A DNA stretch of 64,000 nt from Sulfurimonas sp. Its GTDB lineage: Bacteria; Campylobacterota; Campylobacteria; Campylobacterales; Sulfurimonadaceae. Positions within the stretch are counted from its first letter, which is position 1. The number at the start of each line of letters is the position of its first letter. Below are positions 27,548 to 34,828 of this stretch, one piece after another. The notes below the pieces were generated by a model, which had not been told where the DNA came from, did no database searches, and was given only the letters and a program-made list of their open reading frames with translations. The position numbers were made by a program, and so were the translations under genes. The stretch is taken from positions 1-64,000 of the forward strand of contig NZ_JAQVKP010000003.1 of NCBI RefSeq assembly GCF_028694605.1, read 5' to 3'.

Positions 27548-28065
27548 GCTCTACTCTCTCGTGCTTCACGGATAAGCACTCTTTCTCTGGCTGTCAAATA
27601 AGCATTCCACTCTTTTTCATCACGTTCATGTATCTTCGTGATTTCAGCCAGCGAGCCATCAAGCGCTTTAAAAAAGAGTGCTATATCACGTTTTGGATGT
27701 ACGGGCATAGCAACTCTTCCATAATACTCCACTCCACTCTCTAAAAGTTCTGCGGAGAGTTTAAAGTGTTCAAATCCGATAGACTCAATCTCTGCTTCAT
27801 CTACAAGAGAAACTCTTTTTGGCTGCTCGTTTTTCAAAAACATCTCAAGCGCATCTATCTTTCGATGCAACTCAACGATAAGGTTAAGCAAAACCGGATC
27901 GGTATCGGCCGTATCTCCTTTTGCACGTGCGAGCTTGAGCCAGTGGCTTATAGGGTCATCATCACTCTCGCCAAGTTTGTCAAACTCTCTTGCGTACAAC
28001 TCACTATCCAAAGCAAGCGGACTGAAAGCTATACTAATCGGGGCTTTTACTAAACGAATGCTCAT
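27544..28065 (-). CDS. Conserved hypothetical protein between mqnP and ftsW
   Basis: A 173-residue soluble protein with no signal peptide and no domain I can name with confidence. It is helical in the first half (DPVLLNLIVELHRKIDALEMFLKN), then has a strand-rich part (VSLVDEAEIESIGFEHFKLSA, GVEYYGRVAMPVHPKRDIALFF) that recalls PilZ-type barrels of the atypical kind. The C-terminus is helical. Both ends overlap neighbours as ATGA, so it belongs to a tightly coupled operon. Confidence 0.7.
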   Translation of the reverse strand: MSIRLVKAPISIAFSPLALDSELYAREFDKLGESDDDPISHWLKLARAKGDTADTDPVLLNLIVELHRKIDALEMFLKNEQPKRVSLVDEAEIESIGFEHFKLSAELLESGVEYYGRVAMPVHPKRDIALFFKALDGSLAEITKIHERDEKEWNAYLTARERVLIREARESRA

Positions 28066-28922
28066 AATATAACCTTATCCATAACGATTAAAATAAAAAA
28101 GAGTATGCCAAGATAACCATTGACGGTAAAAAAAGCACGGTCAATTTTTGTAAAATCTTTTCGCACCAAATAGTGTTCATACGAGAGCATCACGGCACTC
28201 AAAACTACTGCCGTAACAGCAAAAAAACCAAGCTGCGCCACCCAGACGAAAAGCGCCCAAAAAAGGACAGTAAGCAGATGAAATAGTGTGGAGAGCAGAA
28301 GCGTCGTCTGCTCACCGTACTTTGAGGGGATGGAGTGCAGTCCTTTTTCTCTGTCAAACTCCATATCCTGCAAAGAGTACAAAAGGTCAAAGCCCGCCAC
28401 CCAAAATAACACGCCAAGACTAAGCAGAACCGACCAAACGGTTATCTCTGCACTTACCGCAACCACACCTGCGATGGGAGCAAGTCCGAGAGAGACGCCA
28501 AGTACGATGTGTGCCAAAGAGGAGAAACGCTTAAAGTAAGAGTAGCTTCCAAGTATGAGCAAGATAGGAAAACTAAGCGTAAAAGCAAGCGGGTTGATGA
28601 TGTAGGCAACCCCCACAAAAGCAAGTGCGTTGACAAGGGTAAAAATCAATATACTTGAAGCATCAAGCCGCCCGTCAACATTTGGGCGAGAAGAGGTGCG
28701 GGGATTTTGCGCATCGATATCTCTGTCTGCAAATCTGTTAAGACCCATGGCAAAATTTCTTGCACTCACAGCCGCCCCCACCCCCAACACAAGAAGTCCA
28801 AATCCAAACCACCCATCAGCCGCAACAATCATAGCTATAAAAATAAAAGGAAGCGAAAATATGGAGTGTTCAAACATCACAAGTTCGTTAAAATCTTTCA
28901 GTTTATTGACATATCTTTGCAA
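28062..28922 (-). CDS. mqnP: UbiA-family prenyltransferase, menaquinone biosynthesis (MqnP)
   Basis: A 286-residue inner-membrane prenyltransferase with eight or nine helices. The two Asp-rich motifs that bind the prenyl diphosphate through magnesium are LNRFADRDID (about residues 61-70) and YSLQDMEFDREKGLHSIP (about 180-197). Campylobacterota make menaquinone by the futalosine route, and this member fits MqnP, which adds the polyprenyl tail. It heads the operon towards ftsW and murG. Confidence 0.88.
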   Translation of the reverse strand: MQRYVNKLKDFNELVMFEHSIFSLPFIFIAMIVAADGWFGFGLLVLGVGAAVSARNFAMGLNRFADRDIDAQNPRTSSRPNVDGRLDASSILIFTLVNALAFVGVAYIINPLAFTLSFPILLILGSYSYFKRFSSLAHIVLGVSLGLAPIAGVVAVSAEITVWSVLLSLGVLFWVAGFDLLYSLQDMEFDREKGLHSIPSKYGEQTTLLLSTLFHLLTVLFWALFVWVAQLGFFAVTAVVLSAVMLSYEHYLVRKDFTKIDRAFFTVNGYLGILFFILIVMDKVIL

Positions 28923-29030
28923 AGTCAGCCTCGAAATTGTTTTTGTTTTATTCTATCTAAAGTTGCTTTAAAAGCGTATGACTTTAGGATTTTTAATGAA
29001 AATCTTTATAGGTTCCTATATGAATAAAAA

Positions 29031-29076
29031 TTCATCTTGCGTTCATATTGTCTTAATCTTCATATTCTATTATAAT
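29031..29076 (+). promoter_or_regulatory. Promoter of the acquired envelope cassette with tandem 11-bp boxes
   Basis: Three consecutive 11-mers, TTCATCTTGCG, TTCATATTGTC and TTAATCTTCAT, share TTNATNTT and start at 29031, 29042 and 29053. They end 7 bp before a perfect TATAAT -10 box (29071-29076). One-helical-turn direct repeats over the -35 region are typical of OmpR-type activator sites, so the regulator encoded next may control itself. Confidence 0.6.
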
Positions 29077-29170
29077 ACTTAAAAAGCCTCTACAACATAT
29101 AGGAATGCAATTGAAAAATCAACAAAAAAACAGAGTTTCAAAGATGATAATGATGGGTATTTTATAGCAG

Positions 29171-29848
29171 ATGCGCGTACTTGTAGTAGAAGATGATGTA
29201 AAGATAGCCTCATTCATAAGACAGGGTCTGCAAGAGGAGTCTTACAGCGTGGACGTATCATACCACGGCGATGAAGCTATATACTTGGCGCAGACAAACA
29301 GTTACGATATCATAATCCTTGACATAATGCTTCCGGGCTCAAGCGGAATGGAGATCTGCGAAAAGCTGAGAAGCAAAAACATTATAACCCCCATCATCAT
29401 GCTCACAGCCAGAAACAGGCTTGAGGACAAGATAGACGGGCTTGACAGGGGTGCCAACGACTATCTGACCAAACCATTTGCATTCGAAGAGCTGCTTGCG
29501 CGCATACGCGTTCAGCTTCGCAGCACCCACTCTTGCTCATCCGCGGTAATCGAGATAGCCGACCTGAAAATAGACATGAACCGCCGCGAGGTCACACGTG
29601 CAGGCAAAAAGATAACGCTCACAAGCAAAGAGTACGCTCTTTTGGAGCTGTTAGCCAGAAACAAAAAAAGGCTCCTGAGCGAAACCGTCATAAAGGACAG
29701 CATAAGCGACATGGAACAAGATATGATGAGCAATATCATAAGCGTGTATATCTATAGGCTGCGCAACAAGATAGACAAATCCCACGACATAAAACTTATC
29801 CATACCGTACGTGGTCTGGGATATATGCTAAGCAACGAACATGTTTAA
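29171..29848 (+). CDS. OmpR-family response regulator of the envelope cassette
   Basis: A 225-residue regulator with a complete receiver (VVEDD at residues 5-9, YDIIILDIMLPG with the phospho-acceptor Asp, LTKPFAFEELLARI with Lys) and a winged-helix domain ending in IHTVRGLGYML. It resembles PmrA/QseB/CusR-type regulators. The coding sequence is visibly richer in GC and uses AGC, ATA and AGG more than neighbours. It overlaps the kinase gene by 8 bp. The likely operator is the tandem 11-bp array upstream. Confidence 0.93.
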   Translation: MRVLVVEDDVKIASFIRQGLQEESYSVDVSYHGDEAIYLAQTNSYDIIILDIMLPGSSGMEICEKLRSKNIITPIIMLTARNRLEDKIDGLDRGANDYLTKPFAFEELLARIRVQLRSTHSCSSAVIEIADLKIDMNRREVTRAGKKITLTSKEYALLELLARNKKRLLSETVIKDSISDMEQDMMSNIISVYIYRLRNKIDKSHDIKLIHTVRGLGYMLSNEHV

Positions 29849-31259
29849 AAGCCTAAAGATAAAACTGCTCTTCTTTTTCCTGATAACGAACATCCTTGTG
29901 CTCTCAGGCTTTGGCATATTCATATATATGACCGCGAAAAAAGGGGTCTCTGATAGCCTAGACACTATGCTTAAGATAATAAGCATAGATGTCATCCCCG
30001 ATTTTAAAGAGGACAAACATCTTGACGCAAAAGGGGTTGCTGATGAGCTCTACGAAGAGTTTGGCTTAGCGCCTCTGCATGTAAAGATAATCCACTATGA
30101 CAAGATAAACGGGACTGTCGAGCAGGAGAGCGTCTCCTCCGCCGCTTATGAAGGGCTCTTTGACATACCGCTCAACGAGATGGGGCATCTGCACAGCATA
30201 TATTATTTCGACAAGGACCTTTACCGCGTCAGCTCTATGCTTTTGTTCGACGATGACGGCACAAAGGTGTTCTTTCAGCTTGGTATGCTAAAGGACGTGG
30301 ACTCCCCTTATCTCAAGGATCTCGCTATCAGCCTTCTCATAGCCAACCCCGTTATTCTTATCATCTTTTTGTTCATTGCCAACACGCTCGTTAACAGAAC
30401 GCTCCAGCCGGTCAAAGATGTCATCAGGTCTGTAAACTCCATCTCTGCCAACAAGCTTTGCAAACGTATCGACGCAAAGAGCATACCTACCGAAATAAAG
30501 GAGCTGGTGGAGACCTTCAACAGGCTTTTGGACAACCTCGAAGAGTCGTTCAAGAGGATATCCTCTTTCAGCAGCGACGCCTCGCATGAGCTAAAGACGC
30601 CGCTTACGGTCATCAGGGGCGAAGTGGAAGTATGCCTAAGGCAGGAGAGATCGCCGCAGGAATACAGGAACGTGCTAGAAGACGTGCTTGTAGAGGCGCT
30701 TCGCGTGCAGGAGACGATAGACCAGCTTTTCCTGCTCACCAAAAAAGACACGGCCGAACTCGGGAAGAACTTCACGGAGCTGTATCTAGACGAGCTGATC
30801 CCGGACATAGTATCGCAAATAAGCAGGTTCGCATCAAGAAGGTCGGTACGCATAAACATAAAGAACATCATCCCGGCCACTATCTACGCAAACGAAACAC
30901 TCTTAAGGATAGCCATCGAGAACATACTTAGAAATGCGATAATTTACAGCGCGCAGGGCGCAGAGGTAGAGATAGGCATCATCGACTCCGACAACGAATA
31001 CCTCCTCGTCATAGAAGACCACGGCTGCGGAATAACGCAAGAGGACCTCCCATTCGTGTTCGATCGTTTTTACAGAGCCGATAAAGCCCGTTCGCGTAAA
31101 GCCTCGGAGTCGGGAACCGGGCTCGGGCTTGCCATAGTCAAGATGATACTCGACATCCACCGCTACGGCATAGAGCTGCAAAGCACACCTGGAGCCGGAA
31201 CCAAAGCCATCATCAAGATACCCAAGAGCGATGAACAAAAATTAATATTTGATTCATAG
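29841..31259 (+). CDS. Sensor histidine kinase of the envelope cassette
   Basis: A 472-residue membrane kinase. Helix 1 (LLFFFLITNILVLSGFGIFI) and helix 2 (LLIANPVILIIFLFIANTLV, about 170-190) bracket a periplasmic sensor of about 140 residues with no recognised fold. Then come HAMP, the HisKA box SSDASHELKTPLTVIRGEVE with His near residue 250, the N box ENILRNAIIYSA, and G boxes VIEDHGCGI and GTGLGLAIVKMI. It is the partner of the regulator encoded just upstream. The base composition matches the rest of the cassette. Confidence 0.93.
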   Translation: MFKSLKIKLLFFFLITNILVLSGFGIFIYMTAKKGVSDSLDTMLKIISIDVIPDFKEDKHLDAKGVADELYEEFGLAPLHVKIIHYDKINGTVEQESVSSAAYEGLFDIPLNEMGHLHSIYYFDKDLYRVSSMLLFDDDGTKVFFQLGMLKDVDSPYLKDLAISLLIANPVILIIFLFIANTLVNRTLQPVKDVIRSVNSISANKLCKRIDAKSIPTEIKELVETFNRLLDNLEESFKRISSFSSDASHELKTPLTVIRGEVEVCLRQERSPQEYRNVLEDVLVEALRVQETIDQLFLLTKKDTAELGKNFTELYLDELIPDIVSQISRFASRRSVRINIKNIIPATIYANETLLRIAIENILRNAIIYSAQGAEVEIGIIDSDNEYLLVIEDHGCGITQEDLPFVFDRFYRADKARSRKASESGTGLGLAIVKMILDIHRYGIELQSTPGAGTKAIIKIPKSDEQKLIFDS

Positions 31260-31276
31260 AGCTTTCATCCGCATAT

Positions 31277-31318
31277 TTTAATATTCCTGAACACTTCGTT
31301 CTTCTAAAGGATATTAAA
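31277..31318 (+). promoter_or_regulatory. Hairpin masking the ribosome site of the sulfatase gene
   Basis: TTTAATATTCC (31277-31287) can pair with GGATATTAAA (31309-31318), with one bulged base. A small GAAC/GTTC hairpin lies inside. The right arm contains the AAAGGA ribosome site and reaches the first base of the ATG, so folding would block translation of the sulfatase. Confidence 0.45.
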
Positions 31319-33246
31319 TGAAAGAAACAATATACGGCAGGTTCAGGTTCATCACCCTGATCTACATATTATTTTTAAGCGTATCGGCGCTGACACGAAC
31401 CGTTCTTTTGATAAAGTCGCTGAACATGCTTGACATGTCGCTTTTTGAACTGCTGCAGATATATCTCATAGGCGCATTTTTTGATTTCGCCGCGGCAAGC
31501 TACCTCGTGATACCTTTTACGCTCTATCTGCTTTTTGTGCCTCAAAAACTGTTTGGGCACTCCGTTCATAAGTATCTCTCACATATATTTACCTATGCCG
31601 TGATATTTGCTCTGGTTTTCTACTCGTTTAGCGAGTGGTTCTTCTGGGACGAGTTTAGCGTAAGGTTCAATTTTATCGCCGTGGACTATCTGGTCTATAC
31701 TACCGAGGTGATAGGCAATATAAGAGAGTCCTATCCTATGGGCATGCTTCTAAGCGTCATTGCCGTTATAGCTGCGGCGATATTCTGGGTCGTTCACAGA
31801 CTCGGATATATAAACGACATTTCAAAAGACGACAGAAATTTCAGAGGACGCCTCAAGCCGACCGTATTTTACCTGATGTTTCCGGTAATATTCTCGATGG
31901 GAATGCCGCAGGAACTCTCAAAAATATCGCAGAATCAATACGCCAACGAGCTTGGCAAGTCTGGACTATACTCGCTTTTCTCGGCTTTTAGGAACAACTC
32001 CATCGACTATGACAACTTCTATGCAAGAGAAGACGAAAAAGAGATGTTCTCAAATCTCAAGAACGTCTTAAGCACCAAAAACAGCATATTCGTCCATCCA
32101 AAAGAGAACGATACCGTCCGCCAGATAGTGAACAGAGGCGAGGAGAAGGACTATAACGTAATGGTACTAACGGTCGAAAGCCTCAGCGGAAAATTCCTTG
32201 AGTCTTTGGGCGGAGAGGGGGGCTTGACGCCAAATATCGACGCACTGGCAAAAGAGGGCATGTTCTTTAGCAACTTCTATGCAACGGGGACAAGAACCGT
32301 AAGGGGGATGGAAGCCATAACTCTCTCCATCCCTCCCACTCCCGGCCGCTCCATCGTAAAAAGACCCGACAACCACGGAATGTTCTCAAGCGGCTTCATA
32401 TTTAAGAACAAAGGCTACGAGACCAAGTTTATCTACGGCGGCCACGGATACTTCGACAATATGAACGAGTTCTTCTCCAACAACGGCTTTGATATAGTGG
32501 ACAGAACCGATTTTACGGACGAAGAGGATACATTCCATACTACATGGGGAGTTTGCGACGAGGATCTGCTGAACAAAACGCTCAAAGAGGCCGATGCCTC
32601 ATACAAGACCCACAAACCGTTCATGAGCTTCATCATGACAACATCCAACCACCGTCCCTACGACTATCCGGACGGGCGCATAGACATACCTTCGCACACA
32701 GGCAGAGATGGTGCAGTAAAATACACCGACTACGCAATAGGCGATTTTCTGGCAAAAGCCAAAACCAAACCGTGGTTCAAAGACACCATATTCGTCATAG
32801 TGGCAGACCACTGCTCGACAAGTGCGGGCAAAACAGAACTGCCGCTTGACAAATACCGAATCCCGATGATAATGTATGCGCCCTTTATCATAAAACCTCA
32901 AGTCATAGACAAGGTCGCGAGCCAGATAGATATAATGCCTACACTCTTTAGCATGCTCAACTGGTCGTACAAAAGCAAGTTCTACGGCAATGACATACTT
33001 GACGACTCGTTTAAAGAGAGGGCCCTTATAGGCACATACCAGAAGCTCGGTCTTTACAAGGACGGCGTACTTACCGTTTTGTCGCCCGGCAAAAAGGTGC
33101 AGAGCTATAAAGTGCTAAAGACCGATGCTTTTGAGACGCAGTATGAAGATATATCGACCGACGAACATACAAAGGAGGACACCATATCCTACTATCAGGG
33201 GGCAAGCTTGCTGCACAAGAAGAGAATGGACCGCTATGACAACTAA
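31318..33246 (+). CDS. LTA-synthase-type membrane sulfatase/phosphotransferase
   Basis: A 642-residue protein with four or five N-terminal membrane helices (residues 1-165) and a periplasmic alkaline-phosphatase-fold domain. Metal and catalytic sites are visible: VESLSG near residue 287, the nucleophile Thr in ATGTRTVRGMEA near 328, HTTWGVCDEDLL, and VADHCSTS near 497. The architecture is that of LtaS/OpgB phosphoglycerol transferases, not of the EptA group, which has a different helix region. It probably transfers a phospho-head group from phospholipid to an envelope glycan or lipid. Its 3' end overlaps the PAP2 gene by 11 bp. Confidence 0.9.
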   Translation: MKETIYGRFRFITLIYILFLSVSALTRTVLLIKSLNMLDMSLFELLQIYLIGAFFDFAAASYLVIPFTLYLLFVPQKLFGHSVHKYLSHIFTYAVIFALVFYSFSEWFFWDEFSVRFNFIAVDYLVYTTEVIGNIRESYPMGMLLSVIAVIAAAIFWVVHRLGYINDISKDDRNFRGRLKPTVFYLMFPVIFSMGMPQELSKISQNQYANELGKSGLYSLFSAFRNNSIDYDNFYAREDEKEMFSNLKNVLSTKNSIFVHPKENDTVRQIVNRGEEKDYNVMVLTVESLSGKFLESLGGEGGLTPNIDALAKEGMFFSNFYATGTRTVRGMEAITLSIPPTPGRSIVKRPDNHGMFSSGFIFKNKGYETKFIYGGHGYFDNMNEFFSNNGFDIVDRTDFTDEEDTFHTTWGVCDEDLLNKTLKEADASYKTHKPFMSFIMTTSNHRPYDYPDGRIDIPSHTGRDGAVKYTDYAIGDFLAKAKTKPWFKDTIFVIVADHCSTSAGKTELPLDKYRIPMIMYAPFIIKPQVIDKVASQIDIMPTLFSMLNWSYKSKFYGNDILDDSFKERALIGTYQKLGLYKDGVLTVLSPGKKVQSYKVLKTDAFETQYEDISTDEHTKEDTISYYQGASLLHKKRMDRYDN

Positions 33247-33922
33247 AAAGCAGCTTCTCCTGACTGCTTTTTTGCTTATATCTGTCTTCTTTTTCTTTGA
33301 ATACAGCGCAACGGACATTATCATACAAGACTTTTTTTTCGACAAAGCATCAGCCTCATGGCTGCTCTCTCACAAAAACGGCAGCTTGCTCGACATGCTT
33401 TTTTACACAGGCATTAAAGCTGTATTGATTGGCTTTGGGACGGCTATGCTTGTTTTGTACATCTACTCTTTTAGAAACACTCCAAAAGGGCTAGCCTTAA
33501 AAGGGTACAGAAGAGGACTTTTTGTGGTATGGACGGCTCTGCTTACCGTCCCTCTGCTCATAGGCGCTCTCAAAGCGGCGACCAATACACCCTGTCCATG
33601 CCATTTTACGCGCTACGGAGGAGAGTACCCTCATATAAAAGTACTTGATACGATGCCTACATACATAACAAAAAAGTTCAAATGTTTTCCCGCAGGCCAT
33701 GCGAGCGGAGGTTTCGCACTCTTATCACTCTTCTTTCTTTTTAAGACGCAGCGTAACAGACAAAGGGCTATATTCGCCGCTCTTGGCATCGGCTGGAGCA
33801 TGGGGTTGTACAAAATGGTCATAGGAGACCACTATCTGAGCCACACTCTCATAACCATGATAATGTCGTGGTTTATCATACTTCTCATCTACAAAATATC
33901 CTCACTACTGCATCAAAAATGA
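33236..33922 (+). CDS. PAP2-family membrane phosphatase
   Basis: A 228-residue membrane phosphatase with about six helices. It has the subgroup motifs KAATNTPCPCHFTRYGG (phosphatase motif 1 region), FPAGHASGGFALL (motif 2, PSGH-like), and KMVIGDHYLSH (motif 3). In motif 3 the usual Arg and the final Asp of the consensus R-x5-H-x3-D are replaced by Lys and His. It would remove phosphate from a lipid or from lipid A. ATG 33236 overlaps the sulfatase end and fixes the start. It closes the cassette, and miaA follows 12 bp later with normal local composition. Confidence 0.88.
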   Translation: MTTKKQLLLTAFLLISVFFFFEYSATDIIIQDFFFDKASASWLLSHKNGSLLDMLFYTGIKAVLIGFGTAMLVLYIYSFRNTPKGLALKGYRRGLFVVWTALLTVPLLIGALKAATNTPCPCHFTRYGGEYPHIKVLDTMPTYITKKFKCFPAGHASGGFALLSLFFLFKTQRNRQRAIFAALGIGWSMGLYKMVIGDHYLSHTLITMIMSWFIILLIYKISSLLHQK

Positions 33923-33934
33923 TATAATCCTTTT

Positions 33935-34828
33935 ATGATTCAACTAGCGATTATAGGACCCACAGCATCGGGAAAAAGTGATTTAGCCATAAAAGTCGCT
34001 AAAAAAATCAACGCCTACATACTCTCCATAGACTCACTATCTATCTACAAAGAGATAGACATCGTCTCTGCAAAACCCTCAAATGAGGAACTGCAAGAGG
34101 TTAAGCATTTCGGCATAGATGTTTTACAGCCAAATGAGTATTTTAGTATTGAAATTTTTATACGGCTTTACAAAGAAGCGGTGCAAAAATGCCAAGACGA
34201 GAGCAAGAACCTCATCATTGTAGGCGGAACTTCTTTTTATCTGAAGATGCTTGTCGATGGACTCTCAAATATCCCGGCAATAGATGATGCAGCAAAAAAA
34301 AGAGTTGAAAATAGGCTGCTCAACCTGCAAGATAGTTATGATTTTTTATACGCAAAAGATAGCGAGTACATGAAAAACATCTCTGCAAACGACAGATACA
34401 GGATAGAAAAAGCACTTCTTATCTATGAGGCTTCTTCTCTTGCCCCAAGCGAGTGGTTTAGGCAAAATCCGCCAAAACCCGTTATAGAAAATCTTCCTAT
34501 TTACAACATTGATGTTGATAGAGACATTTTGCGAGAGCGCATAAAAAAACGCACCCTAAAGATGTTTGAGAGCGGACTGATAGACGAAGTATGCCGCCTA
34601 GAACAACGCTACACAAGAGCGCCACACTCCATGAACTCAATAGGCATAGTAGAAGTTCTGGAGTATCTTGACGGCAAAGTAAGTAAAGACGAGATGCTAG
34701 AAAACATCTCAATCCACACCGCACAGCTTGCAAAAAGACAGCAGACTTTTAACCGAACCCAGTTTGATGGTGTCATCAATGCACCGCTTGAGGAGTTAGA
34801 AGCGATAATCATGGACAACTTGCTATAA
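33935..34828 (+). CDS. miaA: tRNA dimethylallyltransferase
   Basis: A 297-residue enzyme that adds an isopentenyl group to A37 of tRNAs reading UNN codons. The P-loop IIGPTASGKSDLA is at residues 6-18. The DSLSIYKEIDIVSAKPS region binds the tRNA and substrate, and VGGTSFYLKMLVDGL and RRTLKMFESGLIDE-type helices follow (here KKRTLKMFESGLIDEV). A TATAAT sequence lies between the PAP2 stop and this ATG, so it may have its own promoter. Confidence 0.95.
   Translation: MIQLAIIGPTASGKSDLAIKVAKKINAYILSIDSLSIYKEIDIVSAKPSNEELQEVKHFGIDVLQPNEYFSIEIFIRLYKEAVQKCQDESKNLIIVGGTSFYLKMLVDGLSNIPAIDDAAKKRVENRLLNLQDSYDFLYAKDSEYMKNISANDRYRIEKALLIYEASSLAPSEWFRQNPPKPVIENLPIYNIDVDRDILRERIKKRTLKMFESGLIDEVCRLEQRYTRAPHSMNSIGIVEVLEYLDGKVSKDEMLENISIHTAQLAKRQQTFNRTQFDGVINAPLEELEAIIMDNLL

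Follow-up and report, generated by a model that had tools for sequence, protein, structure and literature searches.

What is a four-gene cluster with a base composition of its own doing between mqnP and miaA of a Sulfurimonas genome, and where did it come from? The question is raised by a window of 64,000 nucleotides (the whole stretch that was analysed; contig NZ_JAQVKP010000003.1 of assembly GCF_028694605.1, positions 1 to 64,000) from the 2.15-Mb genome of Sulfurimonas sp., a sulfur-cycling bacterium, in which a first-pass annotation had pointed out genes for a response regulator, a histidine kinase, an LtaS-type transferase and a PAP2 phosphatase. We consider it probable, at roughly 0.6, that these genes constitute a horizontally acquired and self-regulated operon for envelope remodelling, in which the LtaS-type transferase and the PAP2 phosphatase would act together with a diacylglycerol kinase, DgkA, encoded elsewhere on the chromosome.

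A four-gene block of deviant composition

Gene and domain calls agree with the proposed set of four co-directional genes, which occupy positions 29171-33922 on the plus strand. The first gene (29171-29848) encodes an OmpR/PhoB-type response regulator of 225 amino acids with Response_reg and Trans_reg_C domains, and the second (29841-31259), the frame of which overlaps the first by 8 bp, a sensor histidine kinase of 472 amino acids with HAMP, HisKA and HATPase domains; the two proteins are CzcR/CopR-like and CzcS/CopS-like, respectively, with scores under the NCBIfam cut-offs. After a gap of 58 bp follows the gene for a head-group transferase of the LtaS/OpgB(MdoB) type (31318-33246, 642 amino acids, PF00884), in which an N-terminal transmembrane part precedes an alkaline-phosphatase-fold domain. 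The fourth gene (33236-33922) encodes a PAP2 lipid phosphatase of 228 amino acids (PF01569) with a conserved PAGH motif around residues 152-155 and conserved H199 and H203. An initially assigned start at 33125 was replaced by 33236, and the start then overlaps the transferase stop by 11 bp.

Base composition and codon preference had been described as clearly different from the surroundings, and this holds against a reference of 296 open reading frames of at least 200 amino acids taken from about 460 kb of the genome's own sequence. GC content at third codon positions (GC3) averages 0.378 in the reference (standard deviation 0.066, n=296) and reaches 0.575 in the response regulator, 0.628 in the kinase, 0.600 in the transferase and 0.493 in the PAP2 gene, values that correspond to the 98.3rd to 99.7th percentiles and thus to the top 2% of own-genome genes. 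The codons AGC, ATA and AGG are raised (shares of 0.40, 0.63 and 0.28 in the block versus 0.24, 0.34 and 0.10 in the genome), and the share of GAT is 0.28 in the block versus 0.68. The flanking genes mqnP (28062-28922, minus strand) and miaA (33935-34828, plus strand) are ordinary, as had been stated, with a GC3 of 0.423 for miaA; the block does not share the composition of its flanks.

Insertion into the miaA promoter and probable origin

In the relatives G113, G198, G109 and G133 the divergent genes mqnP and miaA are 66-67 bp apart, whereas 5.0 kb separate them here; mqnP is 93-94% identical to its counterparts in G113 and G198. Alignment of the empty sites with the window delimits an insert of about 4.94 kb (28974-33915, plus strand) and places the break inside the miaA promoter, between -35 and -10. 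Homology of the left flank stops at AAAGTTGCTTTAAAA (TTTAAAA, 28967-28973) and that of the right flank resumes at AAAATGATATAAT; AAAA is common to both block ends and the empty site, which leaves the boundaries uncertain by +/- 4 bp. The retained -10 element of the miaA promoter (TATAAT, 33923-33928, plus strand) abuts the PAP2 stop codon. Conservation of the same four genes at this position in most relatives, which had been named as an argument against acquisition, was not found: the nearest relatives have an empty site.

In the genus, the mqnP-miaA junction (28923-33934 in the window; junction loci of relatives include L159-L166 and L169-L172) measures at most 165 bp in about 71 genomes and 0.47-6.1 kb in 24 others, as counted by hand. 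The long junctions inspected carry unrelated genes, namely another pair of response regulator and kinase together with a Spy-like protein, APC and MFS permeases, PPK2 plus a SulP transporter, a FIST-type sensor, or dgkA alone. The short mqnP-miaA spacer is thus a hot spot for insertions across the genus.

The nearest homologues of all four genes are found in Sulfurovum sp. UBA4779 (L055), where they are arranged in the order dgkA, response regulator, kinase, transferase and PAP2, with identities of 90% for the response regulator, 84% for the kinase, 80% for the transferase and 69% for PAP2. The dnaE product of UBA4779 is 65% identical to that of the host and 64-67% identical to near-full-length copies from other Sulfurimonas. 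In a quick tree of LtaS-type proteins, with SH-aLRT as its sole measure of support, the window copy and that of UBA4779 group with full support. The close relative G198 presents the reverse picture: mqnP and miaA are 93% and 87% identical, yet its LtaS-type protein (partial) and PAP2 reach only 75% and 60% and are located at another site. Some relative of the LtaS-type protein is present in 146 of 200 family genomes, but orthologues with at least 67% identity occur in only about 12 genomes of the same genus. Further homologues are found in Pedobacter (46-50%), Methylococcales, Desulfuromonadales, Halodesulfovibrio, Selenomonas and Geothrix. The empty site in the nearest relatives, the composition, the sporadic homologues in distant phyla and the discordance of tree and identities all bear out the earlier proposal of an acquired block. 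UBA4779 itself was considered as donor and rejected; since the GC3 of its block (0.41-0.55) is below that of the block in the window, a relative with higher GC probably served as the immediate donor.

Predicted operators and a probable dgkA relic

A sigma-70-like promoter (TTGTCT-17-TATAAT, 29048-29076, plus strand) precedes the block and aligns with the dgkA promoter of UBA4779. Its -35 element is overlapped by the first of two predicted regulator boxes (TTCATCTTGCGTTCATATTGTCTTAAT, 29031-29057, plus strand, 14/15), the site at which an OmpR-family activator would be expected to bind. The second box (TTAATATTTGATTCATAGAGCTTTCAT, 31242-31268, plus strand, 14/15) is situated at the end of the kinase gene, upstream of the transferase gene, and occurs at the same place in UBA4779. 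The underlying pattern, TTCAT-N6-TTCAT-N6-TTCAT with an 11-bp period, was derived from the window and locus L037. In the whole genome only these two boxes match it with at most one mismatch, and a control with the reversed pattern returned one match. Most of the scanned loci of Campylobacterota reach scores of 13-15 out of 15 upstream of the LtaS orthologue, be the arrangement joined or split, and the box also precedes dgkA in UBA4779; among 357 other upstream regions a score of 13 was attained only by those in the same divergent intergenic space. The confinement of the predicted boxes to a block that also contains the regulator and kinase genes fits the self-contained regulation suggested earlier. 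The single promoter envisaged for all four genes stands as far as the main promoter is concerned, but the second box between kinase and transferase speaks against exclusivity. As this box is found where relatives with separate operons have their LtaS promoter, its position suggests that a former operon for the two-component system was fused with an LtaS-PAP2 operon.

Repeats of the form GTCAT-N6-GTCAT are present upstream of a PAP2-LtaS-regulator-kinase cluster in Desulfuromonadales (L109:7751-7766 and L110:8151-8166), in two related loci only; they may represent the TTCAT operator in another phylum.

Between the promoter and the response regulator gene lies a frame of 18 codons (LKNQQKNRVSKMIMMGIL*, 29111-29167, plus strand), probably a 5' stub of dgkA, the first codons of which match DgkA (LRNQPK...). 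Promoter plus dgkA start align to UBA4779 with a score of 104 versus a shuffle maximum of 34, the start part alone with a score of 41 versus a maximum of 40 in 1000 shuffles. The block thus probably once carried dgkA and has since lost it. The host has one DgkA (C12:10377-10739), encoded within a gene cluster for the lipopolysaccharide (LPS) core, so that the cell could presumably do without a copy in the block.

The two enzymes and their gene neighbourhoods

The transferase had been classified as LtaS/OpgB-type rather than EptA-type, and we arrive at the same conclusion. PF00884 (163.6 bits) is its only Pfam match, the EptA N-terminal domain EptA_B_N (PF08019) is not matched, and no EptA/MCR model appears among the NCBIfam hits. 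The protein has the multi-transmembrane N-terminus followed by an alkaline-phosphatase-fold periplasmic domain with metal site that is typical of the LtaS/OpgB (COG1368-like) fold, and E287, T327, H445, D497 and H498, which constitute the Thr/Glu/Asp/His metal site, are invariant in an alignment of 29 homologues. An S1 sulfatase was considered and discarded, as the nucleophile position of C/S-X-P-X-R holds threonine (T327 in GTRTVRG). The AlphaFold model (pLDDT 85.5) is closest to VP1736 of Vibrio parahaemolyticus (PDB 3lxq, Z 49), ahead of LtaP/LtaS (Z 33-35), YejM (about 30) and sulfatases (about 25). MCR-1 holds rank 48 in the Foldseek list and is not among the 50 matches aligned by VIA-align, an absence that excludes nothing. 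Phosphoglycerol transferase I and LtaS are the best NCBIfam hits; the LtaS and OpgB/MdoB equivalog models score far under their cut-offs (87 vs 572, 62.9 vs 970 and 58.3 vs 574 bits). By its profile scores the enzyme is a branch of the LtaS/OpgB superfamily and belongs to a subfamily distinct from the characterised equivalogs. VP1736, with about 36% identity and an rmsd of 2.0 Å over 400 residues, falls into the same subfamily and is itself uncharacterised.

A separate OpgB-like protein of 773 amino acids, in a frame of 779, is encoded next to polA in this genome, which is without OpgG (L002, G000:C13, about 191886-194207).

The fourth protein is a member of the PAP2 superfamily (PF01569, 65.4 bits), and P152, H155, G197, H199 and H203 are invariant in 11 homologues; searching PDB sequences with it gave chance hits only.

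In LtaS neighbourhoods of Campylobacterota, genes for DgkA, response regulator, kinase and an LtaS paralogue recur together with PAP2 or EptA. In five loci (L035, L036, L039, L047, L049) EptA occupies the slot of PAP2 beside the LtaS-type gene, and PAP2 and EptA were seen together near an LtaS-type gene in no locus examined. The Desulfuromonadales locus L109 combines PAP2, LtaS, response regulator, kinase (assigned by position) and DgkA with an LtaS paralogue. The recurrence of these partners makes biochemical sense, because phospholipid head-group transferases leave diacylglycerol, which DgkA recycles (PMC8027125), and because PAP2-type LpxE and EptA both alter lipid A phosphates (PMC4730577, PMC8306577). 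In Methylococcales (L094, L097-L099, L103, L116) the LtaS-type gene is accompanied by a gene for a 170-aa membrane protein, and the neighbourhood contains conserved genes of the dapF-DUF484-like kind as well as one for a xerC-like recombinase.

Discussion

In the reading that we favour, envelope stress would be sensed by the two-component system, which is nearest to the metal-responsive CzcRS/CopRS systems and would work like CarRS, ColRS or PmrAB, and the response regulator would bind the TTCAT repeats and switch the operon on. The transferase would then take phosphoglycerol (phosphoethanolamine being the less likely alternative) from a phospholipid and pass it, by way of a threonine intermediate, to an acceptor in the envelope, LPS-associated or otherwise. 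The diacylglycerol released would be phosphorylated by host DgkA, and PAP2 would strip phosphate from a lipid, probably lipid A. Altogether, the surface charge would change and cationic or metal stress would be tolerated.

Several points weigh against this proposal. Phosphoglycerol would add negative charge and is a poor fit with a charge-lowering purpose, and donor lipid, acceptor, signal and phenotype of the operon are predictions. The lipid A phosphatase model NF028538 is the best family match of PAP2, though at 166.4 bits versus a cut-off of 275, and the structure model of the protein is weak (pLDDT 72.7); searching by fold returned the PAP2 superfamily alone, at weak scores, and did not separate PgpB, LpxE and LpxF. 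CzcRS/CopRS (TIGR01387/TIGR01386) are likewise the best hits of regulator and kinase at scores below the cut-offs (254.9 vs 279.2 and 251.9 vs 292.6 bits). The TTCAT motif was defined on the same loci that were used for counting, and the alignment of the 3' half of the dgkA stub to UBA4779 is not significant (p 0.084). As regards the transfer route, no integrase or transposase, terminal repeats or tRNA were found at the block ends and insertion site; with its four genes only, the block does not qualify as a genomic island with mobility genes of its own.

The strongest competing explanation, albeit an unlikely one, is that the LtaS-type enzyme functions as a phosphoethanolamine transferase on phosphatidylethanolamine and neutralises lipid A phosphates, with PAP2 making the site ready, a role that LpxE plays ahead of EptA in Helicobacter and Capnocytophaga. 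Such a sequence of phosphatase and phosphoethanolamine transferase is established (PMC4730577, PMC8306577), DgkA is compatible with either head group, and EptA adjoins LtaS in five Campylobacterota loci from which PAP2 is absent. However, the structure model resembles VP1736 and LtaS/LtaP far more than MCR-1, phosphoglycerol transferase I and LtaS lead the NCBIfam hits, though far under cut-off, and EptA and LtaS-type genes share an operon in L047 and L049 and so probably have different jobs.

A housekeeping function in phospholipid or undecaprenyl-phosphate turnover, with PAP2 as C55-PP or PGP phosphatase and the two-component system as an incidental neighbour, is improbable. It would accord with PAP2 being the sole PF01569 protein found in the genome; but BacA/UppP is encoded as well, which speaks against a C55-PP role, the PAP2 gene is patchy (64 of 228 family genomes) and acquired like the rest of the block, and the regulator boxes connect it with an inducible operon. 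Among Gram-negative phosphoglycerol transferases OpgB is the classical example, so that decoration of a periplasmic glucan in an osmotic response might be considered. Recycling of diacylglycerol by DgkA was indeed first tied to OpgB (PMC8027125). Little credence can be given to this possibility, as no protein of the MdoG/OpgG family was found in the genome by a search in which the E. coli control was positive, an absence that argues against such glucans as the acceptor, and as an OpgB-like protein is already present at C13. That the block is a mere composition artefact, i.e. consists of native genes under other codon selection that were conserved here and lost in a few relatives, is already contradicted and scarcely credible: some other 4.8-kb stretches of the genome come near the block in total GC (L136, 0.459), but all four genes are extreme in GC3 and codon usage, the nearest relatives have an empty site and the closest homologues belong to another family.

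The suggestion of the first-pass annotation that the chemistry may be new is not upheld. In Vibrio vulnificus, CarRS autoregulates and activates dgkA-eptA-mdoB, in which MdoB is of the phosphoglycerol transferase type, and deletion of dgkA and mdoB on top of eptA cut polymyxin B resistance further, to the level of a carR mutant (PMC10433830); a related rstAB-dgkA-eptA arrangement exists in the Harveyi clade (PMC12064563). This is the closest characterised analogue of the acquired operon, with which it shares an OmpR-type two-component system, autoregulation via direct-repeat boxes (here predicted), an MdoB-type homologue and DgkA. In the window, however, PAP2 replaces EptA, the two-component system is part of the operon, dgkA has probably been lost from the block and the box is TTCAT-N6 with an 11-bp period rather than GACA-N6-TACA. 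The CarRS system is needed for full polymyxin B resistance. The mcr/eptA-pap2-dgkA loci (PMC10285318, PMC7559476) similarly place a head-group transferase beside PAP2 and/or diacylglycerol kinase and spread horizontally, but the transferase here is LtaS/OpgB-type and not EptA/MCR-type, and the operon has a dedicated two-component system and no transposon. ColRS/RaxRH with lpxE-eptA-arnT (PMC8306577) resembles it in the metal-type two-component system beside lipid A phosphatase and transferase genes and in overlapping frames, and differs in the transferase family and the presence of ArnT. With LtaS/LtaP lipoteichoic acid synthases and OpgB/MdoB the enzyme has in common the fold, the transmembrane and periplasmic domains and the Thr-based metal site; identity to LtaS/LtaP is about 17-22%, the acceptor in a Gram-negative host cannot be lipoteichoic acid, and OpgG for glucans is missing. 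A search of the openly accessible literature turned up no description of LtaS-type enzymes alongside PAP2 in Campylobacterota. While the overall logic is already known, the novel part would appear to be the pairing of an MdoB/LtaS-type enzyme with PAP2 and a two-component system in the same cluster.

More speculatively, and with considerable doubt, the operon may exemplify a module that is widespread among Gram-negative bacteria and moves horizontally. Its LtaS/MdoB-type enzyme would attach phosphoglycerol, or a head group related to it, to dephosphorylated lipid A or LPS core, and such a modification of lipid A would be hitherto undescribed. Control would rest with a two-component system of its own that acts on TTCAT boxes, and PAP2 and EptA could stand in for each other as partners.

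The locus presents a full regulatory and enzymatic envelope module that moved as one block between bacterial families together with its own predicted operators, and the insertion point is defined to within a few bases. It ties an uncharacterised LtaS/MdoB subfamily, represented by PDB 3lxq, to PAP2, EptA, DgkA and two-component systems in distant phyla. For the MdoB homologue in the polymyxin operon of Vibrio we came upon no described substrate; through the Sulfurimonas operon, the question of that substrate becomes testable outside pathogens.

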